Shown here: piece after piece, positions 1-39,118 of the stretch
Layout: each line of letters begins with the position of its first letter
Position numbering within the stretch: the first letter of the stretch is position 1
DNA from: Spirochaetota bacterium
Lineage (GTDB): Bacteria; Spirochaetota; Brachyspiria; Brachyspirales; JACRPF01
Assembly: GCA_038043445.1 (NCBI GenBank)
Contig: JBBTBY010000005.1
Location: forward strand, 1 to 42,597
Reading direction: 5' to 3'
Length of the DNA: 42,597 nt
The notes under the pieces: model-generated
The model's input: only the letters and a program-made list of their open reading frames with translations
The model's database searches: none
Told to the model about the DNA's origin: nothing
Made by a program: the position numbers and the translations under genes

Positions 1-1361
1 TGAAGCTCGTTCGCCGTCCGTTCTATCTCTGTCTGCGTATATCGCGGACGCGGATCGTACGCTGCCCAGGCATCCTTTCTCCACCCTGCCTTGCCAGATA
101 CCACGAACTCCCGCCGGCGTTTTCGCCAGCCGGTAAGCAGATCGCAGAGTTCATACTGATCGTTCGCAAGATCGAAAAGCTGATATCTTCCGATGAGCGG
201 ATACCAGGCAAGCTTCCATCTCTCGGTGCGCACGCATCGCTGGGTATTGCGCATCGGCTCACCGGGCTCCTCGGGGCTGTAGAATTCGCAGAGAATGGCA
301 TCGCGGACGCGTTCTTTCTCGCCGCGAAGCACAGGCACGAGAGAAAAGCCATCGCTTGCTGATGACGGGCGCGATATTTCGGCGAGATCGCAAAGCGTCG
401 GAAGAATATCGACATGATGTGACATGGCGGTGAAACGCCCGCCGACAGGTATGCCCGGCCCCCTTATGACGAACGGCGATGCTATGCTGTGATCATACAT
501 GTTCTCTTTACCGAGAAGGCCGTGACTGCCGTTGGCTACGCCCTGATCGCCGGTGAACATGATGATGGTATTCTCAAGTTCGCCCCGTGCTTTGAGAAGT
601 CCCAGCACACGCCCTATCTGATGATCGATATGACTTATCATCCCGTAATACCGTGCGCGGTAGCGGCGCATCGCATCCTGCTCACGCGGCCAGTTCTCGA
701 TAAGTTCGTCGCGTATGACCATGTCGCCGTTGTCGAAGGGATGCTCGGGCATATGGTTCGGATAGAGCGGCATGTCCGCCGCGTTATACATCGATGCAAA
801 GGGCTCCGGGCTCACATGCGGATCATGCGGGCCGTGGAAAGCGAGATAGCAGAACCATGGCATATCGCTTGGCGCATGGTCGATAGCGTAGAGCGCCGCA
901 TCAGCGAAGAGCGCATCACCGTGGTCTTCCACTTCGCCGTAGGGCTCCTTGAAACGCATGTAATGGGCATGCTCCTGATAATCGTTGAGATTATCCTTCG
1001 TGCCGAACGCACAGTGCACCGCATCATACCCCTTGTCGCGCGGGTGCCCGTCATTATGCCATTTGCCGCAATGCATCGTGTGATATCCGGCATCGCGGAA
1101 CGCCTTCGGCATGAGCGTGAGCTCGGGGTTTATCGGCATACCGAACCACGGCACCTTATTCGTGAACGTATTACAGCCGGTGAGTATCTCCGCCCGAGCG
1201 GGGGTACATATCGGTGTCGTGCAGAAATGGCGATAGAACGCGCTGCCGTCGTTCGCAAGCGTATCGAGATTCGGCGTATGGATATGGGGGTTGCCGAGCG
1301 CATGTATCGTATCGAAGCGCTGATCGTCCGTGAGTATGAAAAGTACGTTCGGCTTCTTCAT
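1..1361 (-). CDS. Sulfatase (formylglycine-dependent), 3' end cut by window edge
   Basis: Alkaline-phosphatase-superfamily sulfatase, expected to hydrolyse sulfate esters, here probably on glycan fragments. The reading frame is open from the ATG at 1361 to the window edge, giving 453 residues without a stop, so only a short C-terminus can be missing. The N-terminus starts straight into the core strand, with the metal-binding TDDQR at residues 11-15. The Cys-type signature CTPAR is at residues 52-56, where C52 would become formylglycine, and a GKWH motif follows. There is no signal peptide, so the enzyme looks cytoplasmic and would act on imported oligosaccharides. It starts 18 nt after the stop of the upstream glycoside hydrolase, with an AGGAG/GGAG-type ribosome site, so the two are very likely one operon under the AraC gene at 3204. 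The exact substrate cannot be told from sequence. Confidence 0.93.
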   Translation of the reverse strand, partial: MKKPNVLFILTDDQRFDTIHALGNPHIHTPNLDTLANDGSAFYRHFCTTPICTPARAEILTGCNTFTNKVPWFGMPINPELTLMPKAFRDAGYHTMHCGKWHNDGHPRDKGYDAVHCAFGTKDNLNDYQEHAHYMRFKEPYGEVEDHGDALFADAALYAIDHAPSDMPWFCYLAFHGPHDPHVSPEPFASMYNAADMPLYPNHMPEHPFDNGDMVIRDELIENWPREQDAMRRYRARYYGMISHIDHQIGRVLGLLKARGELENTIIMFTGDQGVANGSHGLLGKENMYDHSIASPFVIRGPGIPVGGRFTAMSHHVDILPTLCDLAEISRPSSASDGFSLVPVLRGEKERVRDAILCEFYSPEEPGEPMRNTQRCVRTERWKLAWYPLIGRYQLFDLANDQYELCDLLTGWRKRRREFVVSGKAGWRKDAWAAYDPRPRYTQTEIERTANEL

Positions 1362-4111: not shown

Positions 4112-5524
4112 CTACTTCGTTTTCCTCTTGTACACCCGTACGTAATCGAAGTAAACATTATAACTGAAGTCGGAAATCCGCTCGATGATCTTCACCTGCG
4201 CGTCGCTGACTTCCGTGGCCAGTATGATGAATTCGTTCGTGTGCGATAGCGCCGTTGCGGTGGTATAGCTTTTCACCCCGTCAAGAAAAAAAGTCCACTC
4301 CGTCGGAGTCCATTCGAGTCCGACCGTGTGGTATCCGTTCATAAGATCGGGAATGTAACGAGTCTGCGAACCCAGGAATTTGTGATCCTTGCCGTAACCG
4401 TCCCAGTGTATATTGTGCGTCGTGATGCCCATTTCCGGATCCCAGCATTCGTAGATGTCCACTTCCACTCCGGAACGTCCGGGGTCGCCGATGAACTTTC
4501 CCGTCGTTGGGGACTGCAGCCAGAACGCCGACCAATGTGCGCCATGTGAATTCTCGTATCGCACGCTGCATTCGAAATAGCCATATACCGTTTCGAACTT
4601 GTTCTGTGACGCTACATGAGCGATGAGTATTTTATCGCCGTCGCGCTTTACCGACAGCACCGCATTCCCACTCCCGTCAAGCCGGACCATGGTGTTTGTC
4701 GCGAATCCGCGAAGGCGCGGCCCCTCTACGCGGAACATCCATTTCGACATATCCAATGCGGTGCCGTTGAACTCGTCCTGCCAGACCAGTTGATAATCAT
4801 CGGATGGCGGCCCGCTTCGTCGGCTTCCTTTCACCTTGATCGCCGATGAAAGCCCCGCGTCTTCGGCAGCGGCAGTCACTTCTTCCGTGGTAAGCGCGCG
4901 ATCGTATATTTTGACTTCGTCGATGAAACCGGTCACCCCGGTACCGAATACAAGCGGGGCTTCGTTGACAACAATTTCGCCCGAAGGCATTTCCTGATTT
5001 CCGCACGGAACGCCGTCGACGAACATGCGGACGATTTTCGTCCGTCCGTCGAATGCCGCGACAAGGTGATGCCATGCTCCGTCAACTACGGACATTTTCC
5101 CGTTCACCTGGTTGAACGCCTCCTTCGCACCAGAGAATGTTGCGCTGAATCCGGTGGTGCCGTTGCGCATATGGACGTAGAGTCCGATGCCTCGAGTTTT
5201 CCCCCATTTGGACGCCAGGTTTTGCCATTGCCCGTTGGTACCCGGTAGTTTCACAAGCAACTCGATGGTACATGCGTCTCCGAGATTGAACTTTTCAGAC
5301 GAAGGCACCTCCGCCGACGTCGATCCATTGAAGGAAAGGCATCCGCCTTTTTTTCCGGGAACGAACTCGGCGCCCTTGAGCACACCCTCCATCCCACCGA
5401 TCGAATCCCGTATCGAAGAGCCGCCCCCTTCCTCGAACGACCACCATGCGATGGGTTTTACGCCCTCGCGGGGATACGCTGCCGCCGCCCATACGATCGC
5501 ACCTAACAGAACGAATTTTATCAT
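4112..5524 (-). CDS. Secreted LamG-GH16 endo-glycanase
   Basis: 470-residue exported enzyme. Residues 1-17 are a signal peptide. Residues about 22-225 are a LamG/concanavalin-like jelly roll (AWWSFEE start, FIDEVKIYDRAL end), probably glycan binding. Residues about 244-468 are a GH16 beta-sandwich. The catalytic signature EVDIYE is at 354-359: E354 nucleophile, D356 helper, E359 acid/base, with the one-residue bulge seen in many laminarinases, agarases and porphyranases. The ATG at 5524 has GGAGG six to seven nt upstream; the longer open frame to 5623 lies in the promoter region and is rejected. It diverges from its probable activator at 5700 and converges on the first AraC gene. Substrate could be a beta-glucan or a marine galactan. 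Confidence 0.92.
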   Translation of the reverse strand: MIKFVLLGAIVWAAAAYPREGVKPIAWWSFEEGGGSSIRDSIGGMEGVLKGAEFVPGKKGGCLSFNGSTSAEVPSSEKFNLGDACTIELLVKLPGTNGQWQNLASKWGKTRGIGLYVHMRNGTTGFSATFSGAKEAFNQVNGKMSVVDGAWHHLVAAFDGRTKIVRMFVDGVPCGNQEMPSGEIVVNEAPLVFGTGVTGFIDEVKIYDRALTTEEVTAAAEDAGLSSAIKVKGSRRSGPPSDDYQLVWQDEFNGTALDMSKWMFRVEGPRLRGFATNTMVRLDGSGNAVLSVKRDGDKILIAHVASQNKFETVYGYFECSVRYENSHGAHWSAFWLQSPTTGKFIGDPGRSGVEVDIYECWDPEMGITTHNIHWDGYGKDHKFLGSQTRYIPDLMNGYHTVGLEWTPTEWTFFLDGVKSYTTATALSHTNEFIILATEVSDAQVKIIERISDFSYNVYFDYVRVYKRKTK

Positions 5525-5594
5525 CGATCTCCTCCGCACAAAGCAATGTTTCAAGCCAAAGCAATGCTGTCCGCCCCGGAACAATTGCCATATT

Positions 5595-5623
5595 ACTGTA
5601 TTATAGAACAACAGAGCCGTCAA
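5595..5623 (-). promoter_or_regulatory. Promoter of the GH16 gene
   Basis: On the minus strand, TTGACG (5623-5618), a 17-nt spacer and TACAGT (5600-5595). A TATAAT also occurs at 5605-5600 but with a poor spacer. The -35 box abuts the 21-bp-spaced repeats at 5622-5657, as at AraC-activated promoters. The choice of -10 is uncertain. Confidence 0.4.
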
Positions 5624-5657
5624 TGTATAATGGTACAGAATAAATGTATAATCGTAC
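5622..5657. promoter_or_regulatory. Paired direct repeats, probable AraC-type operator
   Basis: Two 15-nt direct repeats, AATGTATAATGGTAC (5622-5636) and AATGTATAATCGTAC (5643-5657), identical at 14 of 15 positions and starting exactly 21 nt apart (two helical turns). They lie between the divergent GH16 and AraC genes, touch the GH16 -35 box and end 6 nt before the -35 box of the AraC gene. This is the expected layout for a dimer of an AraC-family protein acting on both promoters. Confidence 0.7.
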
Positions 5658-5663
5658 CGTTCA

Positions 5664-5691
5664 TTGACAGCGAAATGTTGCCGTGTATACT
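5664..5691 (+). promoter_or_regulatory. Near-consensus sigma70 promoter of the AraC gene at 5700
   Basis: TTGACA at 5664-5669, a 16-nt spacer, TATACT at 5686-5691. Transcription should start near 5698, right at the ATG at 5700, so the mRNA looks leaderless; no SD sequence is present. Confidence 0.7.
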
Positions 5692-5699
5692 GACCAGCG

Positions 5700-6416
5700 A
5701 TGAGTAATTTTATTCACATTTCATATTACCCTTTCATCGCAGAGGACAATCCACCCCATGGGCATGCGTATTGGGAAACGGTAATCGTCCTTAAGGGAAG
5801 TGGGATAACCGTTGCCGAAGAAACGGAGTATCCGCTAAAACCGCGCACTATCATCGCCTTTCCGCCAAAGTATCGGCATGCCGACCGTCTGCGCGGCGCG
5901 TACGGATGTTATGTGATAGGCGCCCGCGATTTTCCGGGGGTGCACAATCTTGTACATGCACACGATAACGGCACCATAACGGGGATGGCGCATCTGCTCT
6001 ACAGGGAATTCCACCGAAAGCATCGCGGCTGGAGAGAGTCATGCGAGTCGATCCTTGCCTGTATGCAATCGATACAGTTACTCAACCGGTGCGCCGTTGT
6101 CGACGATGAAGCGGTATCTCGGTTCGAAGACATCATCATTGAACATATTCATGCGCCGAATTTCAATATTCGCCGCTCGCTCTCGACACTGCCGATATCG
6201 CCGACACGGATGTTCGCACGATTCAAAAAGGCGCGAGGCGTTTCGCCGAGGCAATACCTCATCAATCTCCGGCTGCGCGAAGCGGCGACGCTGCTCACGA
6301 CAACGGATATTCCCATCGATGTCATTGCGAATCGTCTTGGGTTTTTTGATAGATATCATTTTTCCAGGATATTCAAGCAAAAAATAGGATATAGCCCCGG
6401 GTACTATCGGAAATAA
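5700..6416 (+). CDS. AraC-family transcriptional regulator
   Basis: 238 residues. The short N-terminal cupin begins with histidines at 20 and 22 (PHGHAYWE), the usual first strand of a sugar-binding AraC sensor. Residues about 135-238 are the double HTH domain, with DVIANRLGFFDRYHFSRIF as the second HTH and a typical GYSPGYYRK end. It diverges from the GH16 gene, and the paired direct repeats between them are its likely binding site, giving control of both GH16 and itself. The start codon lies 8 nt after a TATACT -10 box with no SD, suggesting a leaderless transcript. The start is otherwise supported by the conserved N-terminal strand and the lack of upstream alternatives. Confidence 0.92.
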   Translation: MSNFIHISYYPFIAEDNPPHGHAYWETVIVLKGSGITVAEETEYPLKPRTIIAFPPKYRHADRLRGAYGCYVIGARDFPGVHNLVHAHDNGTITGMAHLLYREFHRKHRGWRESCESILACMQSIQLLNRCAVVDDEAVSRFEDIIIEHIHAPNFNIRRSLSTLPISPTRMFARFKKARGVSPRQYLINLRLREAATLLTTTDIPIDVIANRLGFFDRYHFSRIFKQKIGYSPGYYRK

Positions 6417-6431
6417 TGTCCATATCATTCC

Positions 6432-6460
6432 TTGACAGGAGCGCAGTATGGCATTATACT
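6432..6460 (+). promoter_or_regulatory. Near-consensus sigma70 promoter of the LysM-SBP operon
   Basis: TTGACA at 6432-6437, a 17-nt spacer, TATACT at 6455-6460. Only one base departs from the consensus hexamers. Predicted transcription start near 6467, inside the inverted repeat at 6463-6483, so a repressor bound there would block initiation. Confidence 0.75.
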
Positions 6461-6462
6461 AT

Positions 6463-6483
6463 CTGTACTGCTGCTTGGTACAG
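6463..6483. promoter_or_regulatory. Inverted repeat CTGTAC-N9-GTACAG, probable repressor operator
   Basis: Perfect 6-bp arms (6463-6468 and 6478-6483) around a 9-nt spacer, placed just after the -10 box. The operon encodes a GntR-HTH/LacI-type regulator, and TGTAC half-sites recall those of the AraR family, though with a different spacing. Autoregulation is inferred. Confidence 0.5.
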
Positions 6484-6526
6484 TTAAGCACATTGTAACA
6501 ACGCTGGAAGGCGGGGAGATCAGTGT

Positions 6527-8533
6527 ATGAAAAACATATTCGGGATGTTCGGGAAATACTTCGGCGTCATCGCCATCTGTGCTGCCTTTATCGTTGCTGC
6601 TATCGCGGTCTTTCTTAATCAACGCATCGATGAAGATGCATTTCACATCGTCAAGACGGGCGAAACGCTCGAGTCGATAGCCAAGTCATATCACGTATCG
6701 GTCGATACGATCTGCAGCGAGAATTATCCCGATGTGCAGGCCAATGACAGAATAACCGTCGGCATGAAAATAAAGCTCCCGAAAAGTGCGCTTGCAAGCA
6801 CGATCACTGTCCGCTTAGCCCACTGGCAGCTTGAACCCGGCTGCCGCGAGGGCATCAATTACATGATAAAGGAATATCAGAAACTCCATCCGAACGTGAA
6901 GATACTACAAAACACCGTCCCTGAATCAACGTACGGTCAATGGTTCATCACCCAGATGCTCGGGGGCACGGCGCCCGACCTCATCGAGTGCGCGCTCGGC
7001 GTGCCGTATAATCTCCTCATCGGTTACTACATGAGGTACTTCACGCCGCTCACCGACCAGATGATGAGCCCCAATCCATACAACAAAGGCAATGAATTCG
7101 AAGGGATGGCCCTCCGCGATACGGCGAAGGACGGCTTCAAGAACTGCTATGTCCCGGACGTTCAGGAATATATGACCATCGGCCTTTCAATGCATATGGT
7201 ACGCATCTACTACAACAAAGACCTGCTGTTGAAATTGACCGGCAGTACGAACGCCCCGACATCGTGGCAGGAATTCCTTGTGATATGCGATACGATAAAA
7301 AAGCATAAATATATGAACAAAAAGACCGCGGAAGATCTCGCGCGGCTCCGCAAGGCCGCTTCCAATGCAGCCGCACATCTCAGCGAATTGAAAGCGCGGA
7401 GCAGTGCGGCATCGAAGACGGCCCGTGCGGAACGCATCAACGCCGACGCACAGAAAAAACTCGCCGCGTACGAAATGACGGTGACGCCGTATGTTCCGAT
7501 AGCGAATTCGAGCTATCACATGGGAATGCTTGAAGGATCGTTCTTCAACGTCATCACATCAAAGGCCCGCGACAGGATCGATTTCAATCATGACTGTACC
7601 GTCAGCGCTGTTGAACAGTACATCGGTTTCAAGACCGGGCTCATCGATATGAACTACTCCCCCTACCGCTCGCGATTCACGCTTGTGGCACAGATGTCGA
7701 GTAATTCCATGCAGGGATTCACCGGGCTCAAGCGCGACGATGCGGTGCTCATGTTCGTGCAGGGCCGTTCGGTGTTCATCGTCACCGGGACTTGGGACGC
7801 GCTTACGCTCGCGGAACAGGCGAAAGACAACGGCTTTGCCGTCGGCGTGATGGATTTCCCCTACCCGGACAGGAACAGCCCCGATCTATACAGGGATTTC
7901 GTCGGCCCGTCATTCGAGGACCCGTCCATGGGTTTCCCATTCGGCTGCCCCACGCCGGAAAGCGCGTCAGAACGCAAACGCTACGCCATAGACTTTCTTC
8001 TGTTCATGGCATCGAAAGAGAACAATTACAAGCTCAATGAACTGATCGGCTGGATACCGTCGATACGCGGAGCCGCCACATCCGGCGTTCTCAAATTCTT
8101 TCAGCCGCACACCGATGGTGTTATGGGCGGATGGAACATCAATCTCGGCGGCGAGTCGATAATAAAATGGCAGCAGGTGTATGCGATGTACCAGGTAGGT
8201 CAGCTCTCCTATGATGACATGTGCAGGGATTTCATCCCGTACTACCTTGAACGCGGGTACAACGATTATATCACCGTGAACAAGAACTGGCGGCGAAGCA
8301 TCGTGAACGATGAAAAGCTCGCGACCATGCTCCGGGTAAAATCGTTCGCAGCGACCAATGAGCAGAAGCGCGCCGAATATTCGGCAAAATACCGATACGT
8401 GCTCCTCCGGCTCAACCGCGAGGTCGATGTAAGCTATGAGCGATCGCTCCTTACCCGTGTGGCCGCGAAGAATACGGTATCGCCCGCTTTCGACTACAGC
8501 GCCATCGCGCGCGCACGGCTCGGGATGCGCTGA
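6527..8533 (+). CDS. Membrane-tethered LysM plus extracellular solute-binding protein fusion
   Basis: 668 residues. Residues 13-30 form one hydrophobic helix with no clear cleavage or lipobox site, so it is likely an inner-membrane anchor. Residues about 38-85 are a LysM domain (FHIVKTGETLESIAKSY, ending KIKLP), expected to bind peptidoglycan. Residues about 93-570 resemble family-1 ABC sugar-binding proteins, with YYNKDLLLKLTG and TSWQEF motifs. Residues about 255-318 are a charged Ala/Lys/Arg-rich helical insert, probably coiled coil, in the middle of the binding domain. GGGGAG lies 8 nt before the ATG. No permease or ATPase gene is nearby, so it may supply a distant transporter or act as a periplasmic sugar sensor or holder. 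It is first in an operon with the regulator and the large glycoside hydrolase. Confidence 0.85.
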   Translation: MKNIFGMFGKYFGVIAICAAFIVAAIAVFLNQRIDEDAFHIVKTGETLESIAKSYHVSVDTICSENYPDVQANDRITVGMKIKLPKSALASTITVRLAHWQLEPGCREGINYMIKEYQKLHPNVKILQNTVPESTYGQWFITQMLGGTAPDLIECALGVPYNLLIGYYMRYFTPLTDQMMSPNPYNKGNEFEGMALRDTAKDGFKNCYVPDVQEYMTIGLSMHMVRIYYNKDLLLKLTGSTNAPTSWQEFLVICDTIKKHKYMNKKTAEDLARLRKAASNAAAHLSELKARSSAASKTARAERINADAQKKLAAYEMTVTPYVPIANSSYHMGMLEGSFFNVITSKARDRIDFNHDCTVSAVEQYIGFKTGLIDMNYSPYRSRFTLVAQMSSNSMQGFTGLKRDDAVLMFVQGRSVFIVTGTWDALTLAEQAKDNGFAVGVMDFPYPDRNSPDLYRDFVGPSFEDPSMGFPFGCPTPESASERKRYAIDFLLFMASKENNYKLNELIGWIPSIRGAATSGVLKFFQPHTDGVMGGWNINLGGESIIKWQQVYAMYQVGQLSYDDMCRDFIPYYLERGYNDYITVNKNWRRSIVNDEKLATMLRVKSFAATNEQKRAEYSAKYRYVLLRLNREVDVSYERSLLTRVAAKNTVSPAFDYSAIARARLGMR

Positions 8534-8564
8534 GCACCGGCACATGGCGGGGGCTGAGAACGCG

Positions 8565-9674
8565 ATGAACATTGAAAGCACCAGCTTCATCACCACCGTC
8601 TCAAGCGTTAAGCGAGAGATAGTTCAGAACGAGATCATTCGAGCGAAAAAGGGCAACGGCGATAAGATCCCGTCAGTGCGGGTCCTTGCAAAAAAGTACC
8701 GCGTAAGCCCGACGACGATCATGCGCATCGTCGCCGAGCTTACCGGCGAAGGCGTACTGATAACCTCGGAAAAACGAGGCGTCTTCATCAACGCTATCGA
8801 TCTCTGTTCACGATATCTCATCCCGAAGGACAACATTGCGGTCATTGTCAATGCGTTCGGCTACTATTATGACGAGGTCCTCGGGGTCATCGAAGCGGAG
8901 GCTGACAAGCGCAATCTCCGTATCATATTCCAGACTTCCGGATGGGGCTACCGCGATGTATCGCCGATCATCGCCGAACTGGGCGGGTTGAGCAGGACCG
9001 CCGGCATCATCATGCGCATCCCGGACGGATTTTCCGATACAACGCCATTCATGCATACGATATCGCAGGGTGTGCCGATAGTGTTCATCGACAGCGACCT
9101 TGCGGAAGTGAACACCGACAGCATCACCGTCGACAATATCACCGGTGCGCGCCGGGCGGTCGAGCACCTCATCGAGAACGGGCATACGCGCATAGGGTTT
9201 TTCAGGGAGCCGACGCAGGTGCGCTCATCGGTAGAAGCGGACCGATACCGCGGCTACTGTGCGGCCCTCGCTGCGCACGGCATAACGGCACCGAACGAAT
9301 TCGATATCCAGCGCTCCGAGGACGACCTGTCCCTTGCAGATGCATCGCTTCGCGATCTCATCGCATCGCAGACGATAACGGCTTTTTTCTGTTATAACGA
9401 TCTCTATGCTCATTGGCTCATTGCGTACTGCCGAATGCAGAACATATCGGTGCCCGATGACATCTCTATCGTCGGGTTCGACAATGCGCGTTCGCTGCCG
9501 ACACCGAGACTATCGACCATGGACCCGCACAAGGAAGAGATGGGCCGTCATGCCGCACGGCTTCTCTTTCGGCGCATCGCTTCGCCATACGATGCCTATG
9601 CCCCCGAACATATCGTATTGACACCGACACTTGTTCACGGCGATACCGTACGATCACTATCAGGAGTTCGATGA
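8565..9674 (+). CDS. GntR-HTH/LacI-sensor transcriptional regulator (AraR-like architecture)
   Basis: 369 residues from the ATG at 8565. Residues about 10-80 are a GntR winged helix (IPSVRVLAKKYRVSPTTIMR, then GVLITSEKRGVF). Residues about 90-365 are a LacI/periplasmic-binding-like sensor, with the family's TDSITVDN, HLIENGHTRIGFF and DDISIVGFDN motifs. This mix of GntR DNA-binding and LacI sugar-sensing domains is that of AraR-type repressors. The open frame extends upstream into the preceding gene, and ATG 8544 is possible. I chose 8565 because a G-rich stretch lies about 11 nt before it and the protein then begins close to the HTH. Its end overlaps the next gene. The likely target is the inverted repeat at 6463-6483. 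Confidence 0.88.
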   Translation: MNIESTSFITTVSSVKREIVQNEIIRAKKGNGDKIPSVRVLAKKYRVSPTTIMRIVAELTGEGVLITSEKRGVFINAIDLCSRYLIPKDNIAVIVNAFGYYYDEVLGVIEAEADKRNLRIIFQTSGWGYRDVSPIIAELGGLSRTAGIIMRIPDGFSDTTPFMHTISQGVPIVFIDSDLAEVNTDSITVDNITGARRAVEHLIENGHTRIGFFREPTQVRSSVEADRYRGYCAALAAHGITAPNEFDIQRSEDDLSLADASLRDLIASQTITAFFCYNDLYAHWLIAYCRMQNISVPDDISIVGFDNARSLPTPRLSTMDPHKEEMGRHAARLLFRRIASPYDAYAPEHIVLTPTLVHGDTVRSLSGVR

Positions 9675-12600
9675 TGCGAAAACACCTTCTCGTCATGCTA
9701 TTCTCTTTTGCCGCGTTGACCGGCGCGGACGATGAGCTCGATGCCGGTTATACGCCGGTATTCACGACAGCGTTCGGATCTGCATCCGTGCCGCTGAAAG
9801 GCAATGACCGCGTGAGCGGCGTACTGCCCGACGGATGGCGGGAGGATTCCGCTTGGGCAAAGACCTGGGTGAACTATACCGTCGTATCGGAGCGCGGCGA
9901 AAATTCCCTCCGCATCTCCGTGACGAATATCGTTGACGGCAAATGTCAATTCACCCACGATATCCCGCAGAAGAACGGCATCTGGCGCCTTCGCGTCCGT
10001 GCCCGTTCCGCCGACCTCCTCACGCTCACTGTCGGTGTTCGGGAAACTGGTCCGAAATACAAATTCCTTGCACTCGCCCGATTCTCGCTTACCCGTGAAT
10101 TCAGGGAACATCTGTTCGAATGCACGCTCCCGGCCCATACGCAGCCGACGGCTCTGTACGCGCTCATCGAGGACAGGGGCGAGATCGATATCGCCTCATT
10201 CGTCCTGGAAGAAAGCGATGAAGCATCAATGGATAAGCGATTCCGTCTGCGCTACCCCTATGCTGAGAACGGGAATCTGCTCCGGACAACACGGCTTCCC
10301 CTCGGATTACAGAGCGGCTGGATGCTTGACCGTAACCGCTCCGACGGCGATGATATCGTCATTGCCGCGGACACGTCGGAGAAAGGGCCGAGCGGATATC
10401 CGCCGCTTACACTCGAGAATCCCGGCGCCACATCGCAGCTCTACAGCGAACCGTTCTTCGTGCCGCTGAGCGGAACACACATCGCGAGCATGTATGTGAA
10501 CGGACGCGGGAAAGGATCACTTGCCGTACTCGGCGAGGGGAAAACGCTCGCGACGAAGACATTCGATCTCGGCGATGTTCCTTCGGACGTTTTCACGTTC
10601 TCGGGGGCATCCGCAGCAGTGACGAATATATCGCTCCCCGACAATTCACGCGGATACCGTATCAGTATCCCCAAAGCAGGGGCGAACCCGTGGGACGTTC
10701 GGCTTGATGCGGTATCGCGATACGACATCGCACTTGGAGATACTGTTCTTATCGTCTTCAATGCCCGAGCGCTATCCGCCGACAGTTCCGGTGCTGATAA
10801 TAATTACATCAAGATCGAACAGAGCAGCGCACCCTATCGCTCCGTGCTGTCGCAGAAATTCAGGCCCGAAACAGAATGGAAGCGCTTCGTGTTCGCAGGC
10901 TCCGCACCGATACCATACGAAGCAGGAAAATGCCGCGTGACATTTCAGCTCGGGGCGAACCGCCAGGAAGTGGAGATAGCGAATATACGCTGCATGGATC
11001 TGCGCCGAACGATGGTCCCCGACGAAGCGATCAGGGCCGCGAATGCAAGCGCGCCGCTTAACGGCACCGATATGCTCAACGACGCTGAGACGCGGACAGG
11101 CGCATGGACGCGCGTTGCCGTTCCTTTCAAACCGATCCCCAACAGCCGCGGCCATGCGCTCATGCTGTCCTGGAGCGGTTCCCTTCGCATTGATGCCATG
11201 CAGGTCGAGCGCGGAGAGACACCGCGGCCATATGCGCCGCAATCGACTGCCGAGGTGTCGCTGGCATCGCCTCAGTATAATAACATCTTCTTCGACGGTC
11301 CGCCCACCGCGGATTATTGCGTCACCGGGGCACCGGCAGGTTCATTCCTGCACGCAAGGACTATCAATGTCTACCGCGAAGAGAGCGGTCTTTCCAGGGT
11401 AGCGCTCTCCGGTAAAACGATGCAGAATGGGAACATCAGCATCCCTCCCGGCAGGAACGTATACGGGTCGCAGAGGATAGAAACATGGGTCGCTGACGCC
11501 GGCGGAAAACGCATAAGCCCATTCGCCGAGATCGTACTGCACCGCATGCGTACACCGCGCTATTGGAAAGCGGACGCTCCGCGCTCACCCTTCGGCATAC
11601 ACACCATCGCAACGACTCGTCATATACTCATGGCAAAGGCGATGGGATTCAATTGGACGCGCCTGCACGATGCCGGTCTCAACTATATCGGCTGGTACCA
11701 TCTGGAACCGCAGAAAGGGACATGGATGTTCAGCGATGCGGATATACAGCGCTATCGAACGCACAGCATGAAGGTGATGGGTGAATACTCGACAGCCCCG
11801 CGATGGGCGAGCTACGGCAGGGACATAAAGCCCCAGTCGGAATACTTTGACCGCTTCTATCAGCCGCGCGATCTGAACGATTATGCGAACTATGTGCGCG
11901 TTGTAAGCGAACGATACCGCGGCATCATCGATACATATGAAGTGTGGAACGAGCCGTGGATACACGCATGGTGGGGCGTCGGCTTCGATACCGCGAAAGG
12001 CGAGCGTGACGGATATATCACCAGCAAGAACGCCCAGGCCGACTACGTGAAGCTCATGGCGGCAGCATACGCTGCGGCAAAGAAGGTCGACCCTTCCATA
12101 ACCGTTGTCGGCGTCAATACGACGGCGAATAATACCGAAGACCCCGCATCGACGCAGCGCCGATTCAATGGCCCGGTATGGAGCCGCGGGGTGAGTGACG
12201 CCGGCGGGCTCGCCTACTGCGATGCCGTCTCATACCATCACTATATCACAACAGTGAACGGCTTCCCAAGCGACGGCGTGGAAAAAGGCGGCGCGGAATC
12301 GCTCGATGTGTTCAGGACTGACGGCCGACATCAGAAACCCGTCATTATGAGCGAGGGATCATCGATAATGAGCTCCATCGGCGGCGGCCTGTATAAACAT
12401 ACCCTTCCGGTAGAGGACAATGAGGACTGCATGCGAACCGCGAACATGCTCATACGATACATGACTTCTTTGCTCGTCAACGACGTCCAGCGCATGTTCC
12501 TCTATTCCATGCATTGCTTCAATCACTTCTATCGCGGCAATGCATACCGTTTCCTTGTGAACGAGGACGGCACCATGCACCCCGCCGGCGTTGCTGCGAA

Positions 12601-12880
12601 CACGTTCACCTGGCTCATCGAGGACATGCGCTTCGTAAAGACCGTAACGCTCGCTCGCGGCGTATACGCATACCTCTTCGACGGTGACGGGCGATCGGCC
12701 GCTGTCATCTCAACGTGGACATCTGAGCGCGAAGAGTACATACCGCCGGCACGGGATGACATACGCTGTTATGATATTTTCGGGAACACCTGGCGGCAGG
12801 GGGTGCGCATCGGACCTGCCGTCATGTATGTCTCTGCGAAGGGTAACGCATCGGCACTTGAAACGATGCTGACAAAATGA
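9674..12880 (+). CDS. Large secreted clan-A glycoside hydrolase with multiple beta-sandwich modules
   Basis: 1068 residues. Residues 1-17 are a signal peptide. Residues about 20-630 are beta-rich and look like several CBM4/9-type jelly rolls in series, although I cannot set their exact borders. Residues about 637-960 are a TIM barrel opening with SPFGIHTIATTRH. The acid/base is E760 in EVWNEPW and the nucleophile E894 in VIMSEGSS, as in GH39-like and related clan-A enzymes. A C-terminal beta domain closes the protein. ATG codons at 9671 and 9674 are adjacent; AGGAG at 9662-9666 is 7 nt from 9674. The start overlaps the end of the regulator gene, so translation is probably coupled. It is the third enzyme of this glycan region; substrate unknown. 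Confidence 0.87.
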   Translation: MRKHLLVMLFSFAALTGADDELDAGYTPVFTTAFGSASVPLKGNDRVSGVLPDGWREDSAWAKTWVNYTVVSERGENSLRISVTNIVDGKCQFTHDIPQKNGIWRLRVRARSADLLTLTVGVRETGPKYKFLALARFSLTREFREHLFECTLPAHTQPTALYALIEDRGEIDIASFVLEESDEASMDKRFRLRYPYAENGNLLRTTRLPLGLQSGWMLDRNRSDGDDIVIAADTSEKGPSGYPPLTLENPGATSQLYSEPFFVPLSGTHIASMYVNGRGKGSLAVLGEGKTLATKTFDLGDVPSDVFTFSGASAAVTNISLPDNSRGYRISIPKAGANPWDVRLDAVSRYDIALGDTVLIVFNARALSADSSGADNNYIKIEQSSAPYRSVLSQKFRPETEWKRFVFAGSAPIPYEAGKCRVTFQLGANRQEVEIANIRCMDLRRTMVPDEAIRAANASAPLNGTDMLNDAETRTGAWTRVAVPFKPIPNSRGHALMLSWSGSLRIDAMQVERGETPRPYAPQSTAEVSLASPQYNNIFFDGPPTADYCVTGAPAGSFLHARTINVYREESGLSRVALSGKTMQNGNISIPPGRNVYGSQRIETWVADAGGKRISPFAEIVLHRMRTPRYWKADAPRSPFGIHTIATTRHILMAKAMGFNWTRLHDAGLNYIGWYHLEPQKGTWMFSDADIQRYRTHSMKVMGEYSTAPRWASYGRDIKPQSEYFDRFYQPRDLNDYANYVRVVSERYRGIIDTYEVWNEPWIHAWWGVGFDTAKGERDGYITSKNAQADYVKLMAAAYAAAKKVDPSITVVGVNTTANNTEDPASTQRRFNGPVWSRGVSDAGGLAYCDAVSYHHYITTVNGFPSDGVEKGGAESLDVFRTDGRHQKPVIMSEGSSIMSSIGGGLYKHTLPVEDNEDCMRTANMLIRYMTSLLVNDVQRMFLYSMHCFNHFYRGNAYRFLVNEDGTMHPAGVAANTFTWLIEDMRFVKTVTLARGVYAYLFDGDGRSAAVISTWTSEREEYIPPARDDIRCYDIFGNTWRQGVRIGPAVMYVSAKGNASALETMLTK

Positions 12881-12904: not shown

Positions 12905-14884
12905 TCAGTCGCGATTGACGAAAAGCCCGCTCAGCGAGAACGTTACGAACGCCAGGTGCTCGTTCACCACAAGGTCTTTCACTGCGCGCGAAGGCCGCTG
13001 ACGGTAGGTGTAATTGATATCGATGTCAAGATTCGCGTTGCCGAGCTTGATCCGCGGCGTTATACCGGCAAGCCCGCCAAGACCGTAGACGGGCGGTTTT
13101 CCTGAGAAGATTATCATCGTGCCTTCGATCCCGGCGCGCACGGAGAGCCAATCGAATAACCAGTGTTCGATCGCCGGCATGAGCTTGCCCATGTACATGC
13201 CATGATCGTAGTAGATCTCGTTCATCTGCTTGCCGACGATGAACGTCCGCTTCTCGTTGAGCGCGAACGTTATCGTATTCTCGATGAATATCGGCGTCCG
13301 GTAACTGATGAAATTCGAGACCGTTGTATCATAATACCAGGCATTATCCATATAGTAACTGACAAGCGTATCGAACATAACCGAATCGGACGGGTCCTTG
13401 ATCAAGATCCCGAACTCGGCACCCCAGACGATTTTCTGGTCGAAATCGTAATTCGCCTGCGCAGGGTCCTTCCTGTCCTTTCCGATAGCACTGCCCTTTG
13501 CCATGAATACATGCGTCCCATTTGTCCAATTCGGGGATGAATCATAGATCCCAATTTCTCGGTACGCAATGGCAATGCCCGCGCCGAAACCCACACACTC
13601 ACCTAAAGAGAATCCCGAAGCGAGCATGCCGCGATGATAGGAACCACCGTTGTTCTGAAAGGTACTATAGTTCATGAAATTCGGGTTCCCGGGGTTCTTC
13701 GGTATGAGCCCGCCGGTGATCGGGTCGCTGAAGCCGCTGAAATTATACTCAAGCGTCAGCCCCCATCCTTTTGTCACAGGAATGCTGTATCCGATAATGC
13801 CTTGACCTCCCATCTCCAGCGCACCGTACCCGTTCCCAGTCAAGGGACCCGACGGCTGCTGCACCCATGCCATGAATGCATTGTCCGGCACGATCATGAT
13901 CGGAAAGTTCTGGATCGACAGGGATGCGTATATCCTATCCTGCTTCGCCGCACCGAGATACGCCGGGTTCACCATCGTGGTATAACGTTCGGGAACGACC
14001 TTGAATTTCGATGTGGCCCCGGAAAGCTTATTGAGGAACGCCTGCACGACCTTGTTGTTCGGATCGAGCTGTTTCGCCGCATACAGTTCGGCTTTTGCCT
14101 TCGACATATCCTTGTTATCGTACGCATCGATACCTTTCGACAGCTTTACGACCGCATCCTCGTTCATCGCCGTCTTCGATGCGAGCGCATCATTGATGGA
14201 GCGATCGACACCGAGCTTCAACGTCGTGAGAATGTCCTTCGCGAAGAAAGCGCTTATGTACGGGTAGTTCTTTCCCGGCTCGGTTATCTGCTTACGCCAG
14301 ACGACCTCGCCCGTTTCCACCTTCGTCATGCGAAGGCTCACGATGAGCGAGCCCGGCATGCTTACGATATCCCCGAAGACGATGAAATCGCAGGCGAGTA
14401 TCTTCCCCGCCTTGACGGAATCCTTTTCATCGACAGCGCCGGTAAGCGATAGTTCCATCTCCTTGAAGAGCTCGGAGCGCTTCTCGCGTTCGACAAGCCG
14501 CACACGGGGCGATTTTTTCACTTCAAAGGCGATGAGCTCGGAGAAACCTTTACCGATATATTTATGCTCGGGATTATCGGAGCTTACCTTAAAGTCATTG
14601 ATGGCTATCTTGTTCTCGCCGGGGGTCGACACGCCCATGCCGCCTGCAGTGATATCCCGTTCATCAGCGAGTGCCGCATTCGATTCAGTATCGTTTATTT
14701 TCTTGACGGCGGACTTCTGCACCTCGACGACACCCATATGCTTCGTCTTGATACGCACGGTCGACTCGGTCTCTTTCACCAGACCGTGAATGACATCGCC
14801 ATTCTCAAGTATAACGGTTTTTTCCTGCGGCACGGCGATCGCCATGCAGAAGATCGCAAACACCATGATCCGTATTGCCCGCAT
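12905..14884 (-). CDS. CsgG-like domain, TPR and outer-membrane beta-barrel fusion protein
   Basis: 659 residues with an N-terminal signal peptide (about 1-18). Residues 20-65 form a small beta domain (VILENGDVIHGLVKE) like those that begin many spirochaete envelope proteins. Residues about 90-230 match the CsgG/FlgO type of fold: NKIAINDF, then PRVRLVEREKRSELFKE, then GKILACDFIVFGDI. Residues about 245-300 look like a TPR-type helical pair (AYDNKDMSKAKAELYAAKQLDP). Residues about 315-659 are alternating aromatic/polar strands ending in a barrel-like C-terminus. The start has GGAGG about 7 nt upstream. A secretion, assembly or lipoprotein-localisation role in the outer membrane is inferred from the CsgG-like part only. 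It stands alone, converging on the large glycosidase with 24 nt between stops. Confidence 0.75.
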   Translation of the reverse strand: MRAIRIMVFAIFCMAIAVPQEKTVILENGDVIHGLVKETESTVRIKTKHMGVVEVQKSAVKKINDTESNAALADERDITAGGMGVSTPGENKIAINDFKVSSDNPEHKYIGKGFSELIAFEVKKSPRVRLVEREKRSELFKEMELSLTGAVDEKDSVKAGKILACDFIVFGDIVSMPGSLIVSLRMTKVETGEVVWRKQITEPGKNYPYISAFFAKDILTTLKLGVDRSINDALASKTAMNEDAVVKLSKGIDAYDNKDMSKAKAELYAAKQLDPNNKVVQAFLNKLSGATSKFKVVPERYTTMVNPAYLGAAKQDRIYASLSIQNFPIMIVPDNAFMAWVQQPSGPLTGNGYGALEMGGQGIIGYSIPVTKGWGLTLEYNFSGFSDPITGGLIPKNPGNPNFMNYSTFQNNGGSYHRGMLASGFSLGECVGFGAGIAIAYREIGIYDSSPNWTNGTHVFMAKGSAIGKDRKDPAQANYDFDQKIVWGAEFGILIKDPSDSVMFDTLVSYYMDNAWYYDTTVSNFISYRTPIFIENTITFALNEKRTFIVGKQMNEIYYDHGMYMGKLMPAIEHWLFDWLSVRAGIEGTMIIFSGKPPVYGLGGLAGITPRIKLGNANLDIDINYTYRQRPSRAVKDLVVNEHLAFVTFSLSGLFVNRD

Positions 14885-37511: not shown

Positions 37512-38255
37512 ATGCAGAGAACCATTGTGCTCTTCGCAGTGGCATCGTTCACGCTCGCTGCCTTCACCCCCGGTGAAAAATGCTTCTATGACCTGGCCAT
37601 AGAGCTTCCTGAATTCGGCCTTTCCGGCAAGGTCGGCACCATAGAACTTGAGATGATCGGCACGACCAATATGCGCGGCACGCTCCTCCATCATGCCGTC
37701 GTCCGCATCAGGGCAGCCGACATCATACGGCCGATATTCCCGTTCAATAATGTCTTTCAATCCTGGTTCGATGCATCCACGTTCACGCCGCATCGCGTGG
37801 TCTACCAGGTGCGTCAGGGGAAATGGTCGAACGACATCACCTTCGATATCGATGTCGAGAAACGCATCGGCGTCTATACCGATCGCCGCAATCCGAGCGG
37901 CAAGAAGATACATCTGCCGCCGCGGGCCATGGACGTCATCACCGCCCTCTATGCGCTGCGCCGTGCGCCGAAGGACAGGCCGTTCGATTTCATATGGCTC
38001 GATTACGACCGCCTGCGCGATGAAGAGTTCACGTTCAGCGAAGGGACACCGATGCGCATGAAGCCGCTCCGGAAGGACGGTACCGTATCGGTGCTGCAGA
38101 CGCATGAACATATCTTCTACGGCTTCACCGTCAATCTGGCGAAGGAATTCGAGTTCCTGCCGTTCGATGTGAACATACCGGCAGTGCGTTCATCGCGGTT
38201 CACGCTCGTGGCGCGGGCGCGTCTGGCAAAATACATATCGGGCAAGCTTCTATGA
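37512..38255 (+). CDS. Secreted DUF3108-family protein
   Basis: 247 residues. Signal peptide about 1-18. The beta-rich body, starting GEKCFYDLAIELPEFGLSGKVG and containing FQSWFDASTFTPHRVVYQVRQG and DVITALYALRR, matches the DUF3108 pattern of a periplasmic lipocalin-like beta barrel of unknown role. GGAGGG lies 4 nt before the ATG; a GTG at 37509 is also in frame. It follows ubiD by 16 nt and overlaps the next gene by 4 nt. Confidence 0.82.
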   Translation: MQRTIVLFAVASFTLAAFTPGEKCFYDLAIELPEFGLSGKVGTIELEMIGTTNMRGTLLHHAVVRIRAADIIRPIFPFNNVFQSWFDASTFTPHRVVYQVRQGKWSNDITFDIDVEKRIGVYTDRRNPSGKKIHLPPRAMDVITALYALRRAPKDRPFDFIWLDYDRLRDEEFTFSEGTPMRMKPLRKDGTVSVLQTHEHIFYGFTVNLAKEFEFLPFDVNIPAVRSSRFTLVARARLAKYISGKLL

Positions 38256-39118
38256 CGACGATGCGCCGCTTCGTGACCGCATGCATCATCGTTCCAACGC
38301 TCCTTACGCCCGCGTCGAACGAAATGATCATGATACCATTGCCGGGCGGTACATTCACCATGGGCTCTCCCATCGAGTACACTGAGAAACCGATACGTAC
38401 GGTAACGGTCGGTCCATTTTCCATCGGTGCGCATGAGGTGACATACAGCGAGTGGCAGCGCGTATACTCCTGGGCACTCTCCCGCGGCTATCGTTTTGAC
38501 AATACCGGCACTAAGGGCGGCCACTTCCTCGACACGAGCGAACACACGGACAACGAACCGGTGACCGGCGTCAGCTGGTACGATGCGATAAAGTGGTGCA
38601 ATGCCGCGTCTGAAATGGAAAAGCGACCGGTATGCTATTATACGACGAGTGCGCGGAGTACCATCTACCGCACGGGACGCATCGAACTTACCGGCACCTC
38701 AGTGCTGCCGCGGGCGGGCGGATATCGCCTTCCCTTCGAGGCGGAATGGGAATATGCCGCACGCGCCGGAACGACAACGCACTTCTTCTGGGGCGCCGCT
38801 ATCAACGGCGACTATGCCTGGAATTATGCGAACTGCACGGGACGCACGCATCCCGTCGGTACGAAAAAGCCCAATCCGTTCGGACTGTATGATACGGCCG
38901 GCAATGTCTATGAATGGTGCTTCGACTTTTACGGATATTATGATGCGAAAACTATAAAGGACCCGAGCGGCCCTTTCGCCGGAGAATACCGCGTCATGCG
39001 CGGCGGATGCATATCCGAACAGAACAATACGCTGCGTACTGCTGCGAGGAATTATGTAGCACCGAGCACGGCTAGTTTCGAGAACGGATTCCGTGTCGTC
39101 ATCGCGCGGCCGCGGTAA
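38252..39118 (+). CDS. Secreted SUMF1/FGE-fold protein, active-site cysteines absent
   Basis: 288 residues. A signal peptide (from M4, about 4-22) precedes a full FGE-sulfatase domain: IPLPGGTFTMGSP, VTGVSWYDAIKWCNA, YRLPFEAEWEYAARAG, NPFGLYDTAGNVYEWC and a RGGC...LRTAARN ending. Real formylglycine-generating enzymes carry a Cys-x4-Cys pair after RGGS; here that stretch is shorter and has no such pair. It is therefore probably a binding or structural member, not the activator of the sulfatase at 1-1361. The start overlaps the DUF3108 stop (ATGA). It ends the UbiD operon. Confidence 0.88.
   Translation: MTTMRRFVTACIIVPTLLTPASNEMIMIPLPGGTFTMGSPIEYTEKPIRTVTVGPFSIGAHEVTYSEWQRVYSWALSRGYRFDNTGTKGGHFLDTSEHTDNEPVTGVSWYDAIKWCNAASEMEKRPVCYYTTSARSTIYRTGRIELTGTSVLPRAGGYRLPFEAEWEYAARAGTTTHFFWGAAINGDYAWNYANCTGRTHPVGTKKPNPFGLYDTAGNVYEWCFDFYGYYDAKTIKDPSGPFAGEYRVMRGGCISEQNNTLRTAARNYVAPSTASFENGFRVVIARPR

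Follow-up and report, generated by a model that had tools for sequence, protein, structure and literature searches.

The tethered sugar-binding protein described here is likely a substrate-specific CUT1-type receptor, one of about 13 that would feed one shared permease and ATPase. Its gene lies in the window (the whole stretch of DNA that was analysed, 42,597 nucleotides; Table 1), which belongs to a 5.1 Mb draft genome (G000; 97% complete, 178 contigs). The receptor family is expanded in this genome and in its sister genome (G001; 20 contigs, also a draft), and a single homologue occurs in the genome of another spirochaete family (G040). In the proposed route, enzymes would release oligosaccharides, which enter the periplasm. 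The receptor would sit at the outer face of the inner membrane via its helix, probably also at the peptidoglycan via its LysM domain, and would capture an oligosaccharide, probably a product of the carbohydrate-active enzymes encoded nearby. It would then hand the sugar to a single fused MalF-MalG permease (C88 in G000), which a single UgpC/MalK-type ATPase (C122 in G000) would power. About 12 paralogous receptors, many of them beside other carbohydrate-active loci, would use the same C88 permease.

From its letters, the earlier note had read the protein as an uncleaved membrane helix and a LysM domain followed by a solute-binding protein (SBP) with a charged helical insert, and this reading is borne out by Pfam, AlphaFold2 and Foldseek. 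SBP_bac_8 (E 3.5e-13) and SBP_bac_1 (E 5e-11) matched over residues 109-520, and both matches, like that to LysM, pass the curated Pfam cut-offs. The AlphaFold2 model was built with a 21-sequence family alignment as input (mean pLDDT 77, pTM 0.67; low-confidence stretches at residues 142-162 and 210-213). It contains a LysM-like beta-alpha-alpha-beta unit (E39-41, H48-54, H59-66, E81-83) and an alpha/beta SBP fold interrupted by two long helices (265-290 and 295-318, pLDDT about 90), which correspond to the charged insert. Domain search and structure prediction therefore agree on both folds: the protein has a LysM domain by sequence and by fold (Pfam, profile match, model) and the SBP_bac_1/SBP_bac_8 fold of a CUT1-type receptor. 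The best PDB matches found by Foldseek are CUT1 oligosaccharide receptors (top E 9.6e-12), with RafE and chitin-oligosaccharide, xylo-oligosaccharide and maltose-type SBPs among the top matches. The C-terminus is mostly helical in the model (residues 542-665) and has 57% mean identity over residues 542-628 in the paralogue alignment.

The membrane helix has K residues before it and polar residues after it, so that by the positive-inside rule it would be oriented N-in/C-out, with about 10 residues predicted on the cytoplasmic side. Judged by eye, the 668-aa protein has neither a lipobox nor a convincing signal-peptidase site, and the lipobox cysteine is absent from every aligned N-terminus of the family; the protein therefore does not classify as a lipoprotein SBP. 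The helix itself is retained by every aligned relative.

Table 1. Positions in the window of the receptor gene, its parts and the neighbouring features.
Feature	Position	Strand	Basis
LamG-GH16 protein	4112..5623	-	Pfam
AraC-family regulator, cupin-type N-domain, directly upstream of SBP gene	5700..6416	+	Pfam
Sigma-70-like promoter TTGACA-17-TATACT, 11/12, between AraC and SBP genes	6432..6460	+	Motif scan
TM-LysM-SBP gene, whole ORF, 668 aa	6527..8533	+	ORF listing, Pfam, AlphaFold2, Foldseek
N-terminal membrane helix, residues 2-32	6530..6622	+	AlphaFold2 helix and family alignment; topology inferred
LysM domain, residues 40-85	6644..6781	+	Pfam PF01476 E 2e-10; profile match to solved LysM structures; model beta-alpha-alpha-beta
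CUT1-type sugar-binding fold, residues 93-541, interrupted by insert	6803..8149	+	Pfam, AlphaFold2, Foldseek
Two-helix insert (predicted), residues about 262-321	7310..7489	+	AlphaFold2 and alignment
Putative EF-hand/dockerin-like calcium loop DFNHDCTVSAVE, residues 352-363	7580..7615	+	Alignment; calcium binding inferred
Conserved helical C-terminal extension, residues 542-668	8150..8530	+	AlphaFold2 and alignment
GntR-HTH/LacI-type regulator	8565..9674	+	ORF list and Pfam; start inferred
Large secreted protein, weak clan-A glycosidase-like match, PF00331 below cut-off	9671..12880	+	Pfam

Mean identity between paralogues is 20.6% in the two-helix insert and about 60% in the SBP fold. In the alignment the insert is missing from a LysM-bearing clade (C66 and C91 of G000 and C12 of G001) and from the distant G040 homologue. 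The insert is a variable, fast-evolving and optional arm, and it is dispensable since three LysM-bearing members lack it. We discarded a general role in docking to the permease, since neither this clade nor the G040 homologue has the insert. The loop behind it follows the pattern DxNxDxxxxxxE; three members have D replacing N and some read exactly DxNxDGxxxxxE. Wherever the region is present in a member, the positions D1, N/D3, D5 and E12 are conserved. By this pattern the loop is a putative calcium site of the EF-hand or dockerin-like type.

A LysM domain is present in every full-length family member of G000 and G001, whereas the enzymes encoded nearby differ between loci. For this reason a part of LysM in substrate recognition was judged unlikely; the domain is more likely an anchor, which probably holds the receptor at the peptidoglycan. 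The linker between the membrane helix and LysM is only about 7 residues long, so the peptidoglycan would need to be close to the inner membrane. This fits the description of the spirochaete peptidoglycan layer as inner-membrane-associated (PMC7554043). A LysM domain and a membrane anchor would also suit a protein that holds sugars or captures wall fragments near the peptidoglycan and works with no transporter. This is quite improbable, given that the constancy of LysM is that of an anchor and that in its genomes the family occurs together with one permease.

At the window locus (Table 1), two regulators adjoin the SBP gene and may control it. For the GntR-HTH/LacI-type gene, the ORF caller gave a start at 8436; we chose the start at 8565, with which the gene does not overlap the SBP gene. 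The promoter match was compared with 300 mononucleotide shuffles, in which the best score was 10. It is a strong match at the window gene only, and a search for a promoter that all paralogues have in common found none. The regulators on both sides, together with the lack of an adjoining permease at most paralogues, could imply that the tethered SBP is a sensor, which would recognise sugars and pass the signal on to a regulator or partner but import nothing. We consider this unlikely, since hardly any residues are left on the cytoplasmic side and there is no signalling domain. Moreover, the flanking regulators are of soluble types, and a permease gene adjoins two members of the family and the distant homologue. 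AraC-type regulators are also found everywhere in G000 (at least 150; 150 of 257 candidates were scored and 150/150 matched), so that such neighbours are expected by chance, and they were set aside as evidence of dedicated regulation. The earlier note had favoured sugar-holding at the peptidoglycan or a sensor role. Both are less likely than import in view of the operon context of the permease, the UgpC/MalK-type ATPase and the short cytoplasmic end.

Further genes in the window deserve mention. A protein at 12905-14884 (-) is LpoB/CsgG-like at its N-terminus and continues into a long C-terminal portion of unassigned kind, and members of its sequence cluster are encoded near other paralogues (L052, L059, L063). 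A sulfatase is encoded at 3-1361 (-) and a sulfatase-modifying-type (FGE) protein at 38252-39118 (+); this pair suggests the use of sulfated glycans.

Searches of the two expanded genomes, both drafts, showed that the receptor belongs to a paralogue family. G000 contains 13 SBP-bearing family loci including the window gene, plus one truncated member. Full-length or near full-length paralogues are encoded on C88, C142, C97, C24, C115, C100, C51, C128, C127, C21 and C66, and that on C91 lies at a contig end. G001 contains nine members, among them the orthologue of the window gene (C1, 80% identity); in the tree, this pair clusters with the G001 member that adjoins the permease gene. Identity between paralogues is about 60% in the SBP body. 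All family members have the membrane helix and, among the aligned full-length relatives, all have LysM except the G040 homologue. Homologues without the N-terminal part, which would have told against the earlier note, thus come down to one distant protein that lacks LysM and still keeps the helix. Carbohydrate-active genes adjoin the receptor gene at several loci (GH28, GH16, GH42-like, pectate-lyase-like and CBM9/CBM4_9). The truncated member of G000, a remnant on C67 (L055:8856-9305, 149 aa), has the membrane helix and LysM fused in frame to the C-terminal tail, without the SBP domain. Its junction lies at ATGCGCATCAAGG, which is also present in the C51 paralogue; either the domain was deleted recently or the contig is misassembled.

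No permease or ATPase gene adjoins the SBP gene within the window. The earlier note was right on this point for the window, but the picture does not extend to the whole genome, where a permease gene comes immediately after that of a close paralogue. On C88 of G000 (L043), the paralogue directly precedes a protein of 792 aa that has two BPD_transp_1 domains, the first half UgpA/MalF-like and the second half MalG/UgpE-like, each with an EAA-like loop (EAAEIDG...LP). The same order, a family member and then directly the fused permease, is found on C13 of G001 (L057). Each expanded genome has one fused permease of this family, which gives a receptor to permease ratio of 13:1 in G000 and 9:1 in G001. 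In G040, the homologue, which has neither LysM nor the insert, is part of an operon on one strand (L065) that encodes a MalK-type ATPase (5264-6358), a TPR protein (6397-7227), the SBP (7258-8949) and the fused permease (8978-11077). The C88 permease (L043:11058-13436) and its G001 counterpart exceed the G040 permease in length by about 95 residues, and both have extra hydrophobic segments between the MalF-like and MalG-like halves.

Each expanded genome has a single close UgpC/MalK-type ATPase with 61-62% identity to the G040 ATPase, and its gene adjoins an rpe-like gene, away from the permease genes; the C122 ATPase passes the UgpC cut-off, which was tested in G000. The TPR protein gene lies directly upstream of the SBP gene in all six of its occurrences in three genomes (L043:8090-8980, L065:6397-7227 and four more). 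The TPR protein (296 aa) has an all-helical model (pLDDT 89), and it likely belongs to the core system as its fourth component. Across 393 Spirochaetota genomes, searched with E up to 1e-60 for the permease and up to 1e-12 for the SBP, both families were at these thresholds confined to the same three, G000, G001 and G040. G000 and G001 belong to one family and are not independent in this co-occurrence, so that one distant genome, G040, anchors the operon argument.

G000 contains further PF00528 loci besides C88, and the permease set of G001 resembles that of G000. Those on C58 (a two-domain protein), C72 and C138 look like permeases of other transporter types, from their frame size and arrangement. 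The C100 and C101 systems each consist of an SBP-permease fusion (L092:4702-7719, 1005 aa, and L089:6005-8863, 952 aa, respectively) and a second large permease. These partner permeases (685 and 663 aa) have a weak glycosidase-like stretch ahead of the permease domain. It could be argued that the orphan receptors serve these two sugar permease systems, as one paralogue shares both its stretch of DNA and its direction with the C100 system. This is very improbable, because both systems have their own fused SBP domain and because it is the fused MalF-MalG permease that the receptor family adjoins in all three genomes.

A shared permease is the simplest reading, since 13 receptors in G000 and nine in G001 face one family permease each; the window protein itself would then dock to the C88 permease, and its sugar would be an oligosaccharide. 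The level of identity in the SBP body is expected if the paralogues have a common partner, but such conservation fits a simple recent duplication too. The C100 paralogue counts against the model, as a different permease pair is encoded some 5 kb away, although this pair comes with a fused SBP of its own. The G000 draft might miss another permease, and the G001 assembly with its 20 contigs likewise shows one. Neighbour genes are weak evidence, as G000 is rich in AraC genes and probably also in carbohydrate enzymes. On balance, we lean towards a 'plug-in' importer, in which one fused permease and one ATPase serve a dozen dispersed membrane- and wall-tethered receptors, whose genes lie beside different carbohydrate-active loci, and the TPR protein is the fourth core component. 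If so, each locus needs only enzymes and a receptor.

If receptors held at the inner membrane and cell wall share one permease, the ability to take up many polysaccharide products can arise through duplication of a single gene. This would explain how carbohydrate-active loci multiplied in these spirochaetes without transporters of their own, and it would caution against labelling orphan SBPs as sensors just because an adjacent permease is missing. It would also become testable whether a tethered receptor takes the place of one that diffuses in the periplasm, in a diderm with its peptidoglycan against the inner membrane.

The earlier note knew of no described equivalent, and this holds as far as our literature search reached, which found no description of a fusion of LysM with a solute-binding protein. 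Profile searches covered Spirochaetota. A peptide-pattern contig search found the sister genome only, with query-specific patterns that leave room for relatives in other phyla, and plasmid tblastn gave just distant ordinary sugar SBPs and two-gene permeases. As far as searched, this is a variant of the type I sugar importer. The proposed system shares with CUT1 importers (MalEFGK2, UgpBAEC, RafEFG with MsmK) the SBP fold, a MalF/MalG-type permease with EAA-like loops and a UgpC/MalK-type ATPase. Unlike in these, the SBP is membrane-anchored and carries LysM and an inserted two-helix arm, MalF and MalG form one polypeptide, a TPR gene accompanies the core genes and, in the expanded genomes, the ATPase gene lies elsewhere.

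The Opp system of Borrelia burgdorferi has five OppA receptors, the permeases OppB1C1 and OppB2C2 and the ATPase OppDF (PMC11732028). In both cases a spirochaete has several receptors for few permeases and a single ATPase, with the sharing here deduced from gene counts. Unlike Opp, the present system would take up sugars and not peptides, has no lipoprotein anchors, has LysM and has about 13 receptors instead of five; the resemblance is an analogy and not homology at family level. Multitask ATPases such as MsmX and MsmK are orphan MalK-like ATPases that energise several sugar importers (PMC7658222). Similarly, one orphan MalK-like ATPase would here drive sugar import for several receptors, but there the ATPase is common to whole receptor-permease sets, whereas here the permease would also be shared. 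The LysM domain resembles by sequence profile those of the solved structures 4uz2, 4xcm and 7r1l, which by their deposited names are mostly wall hydrolases or spore-coat proteins, none joined to a sugar-binding receptor. In ECF transporters, one energising module serves many substrate-capturing parts; the 'plug-in' logic proposed here is comparable, but built from type I ABC parts.
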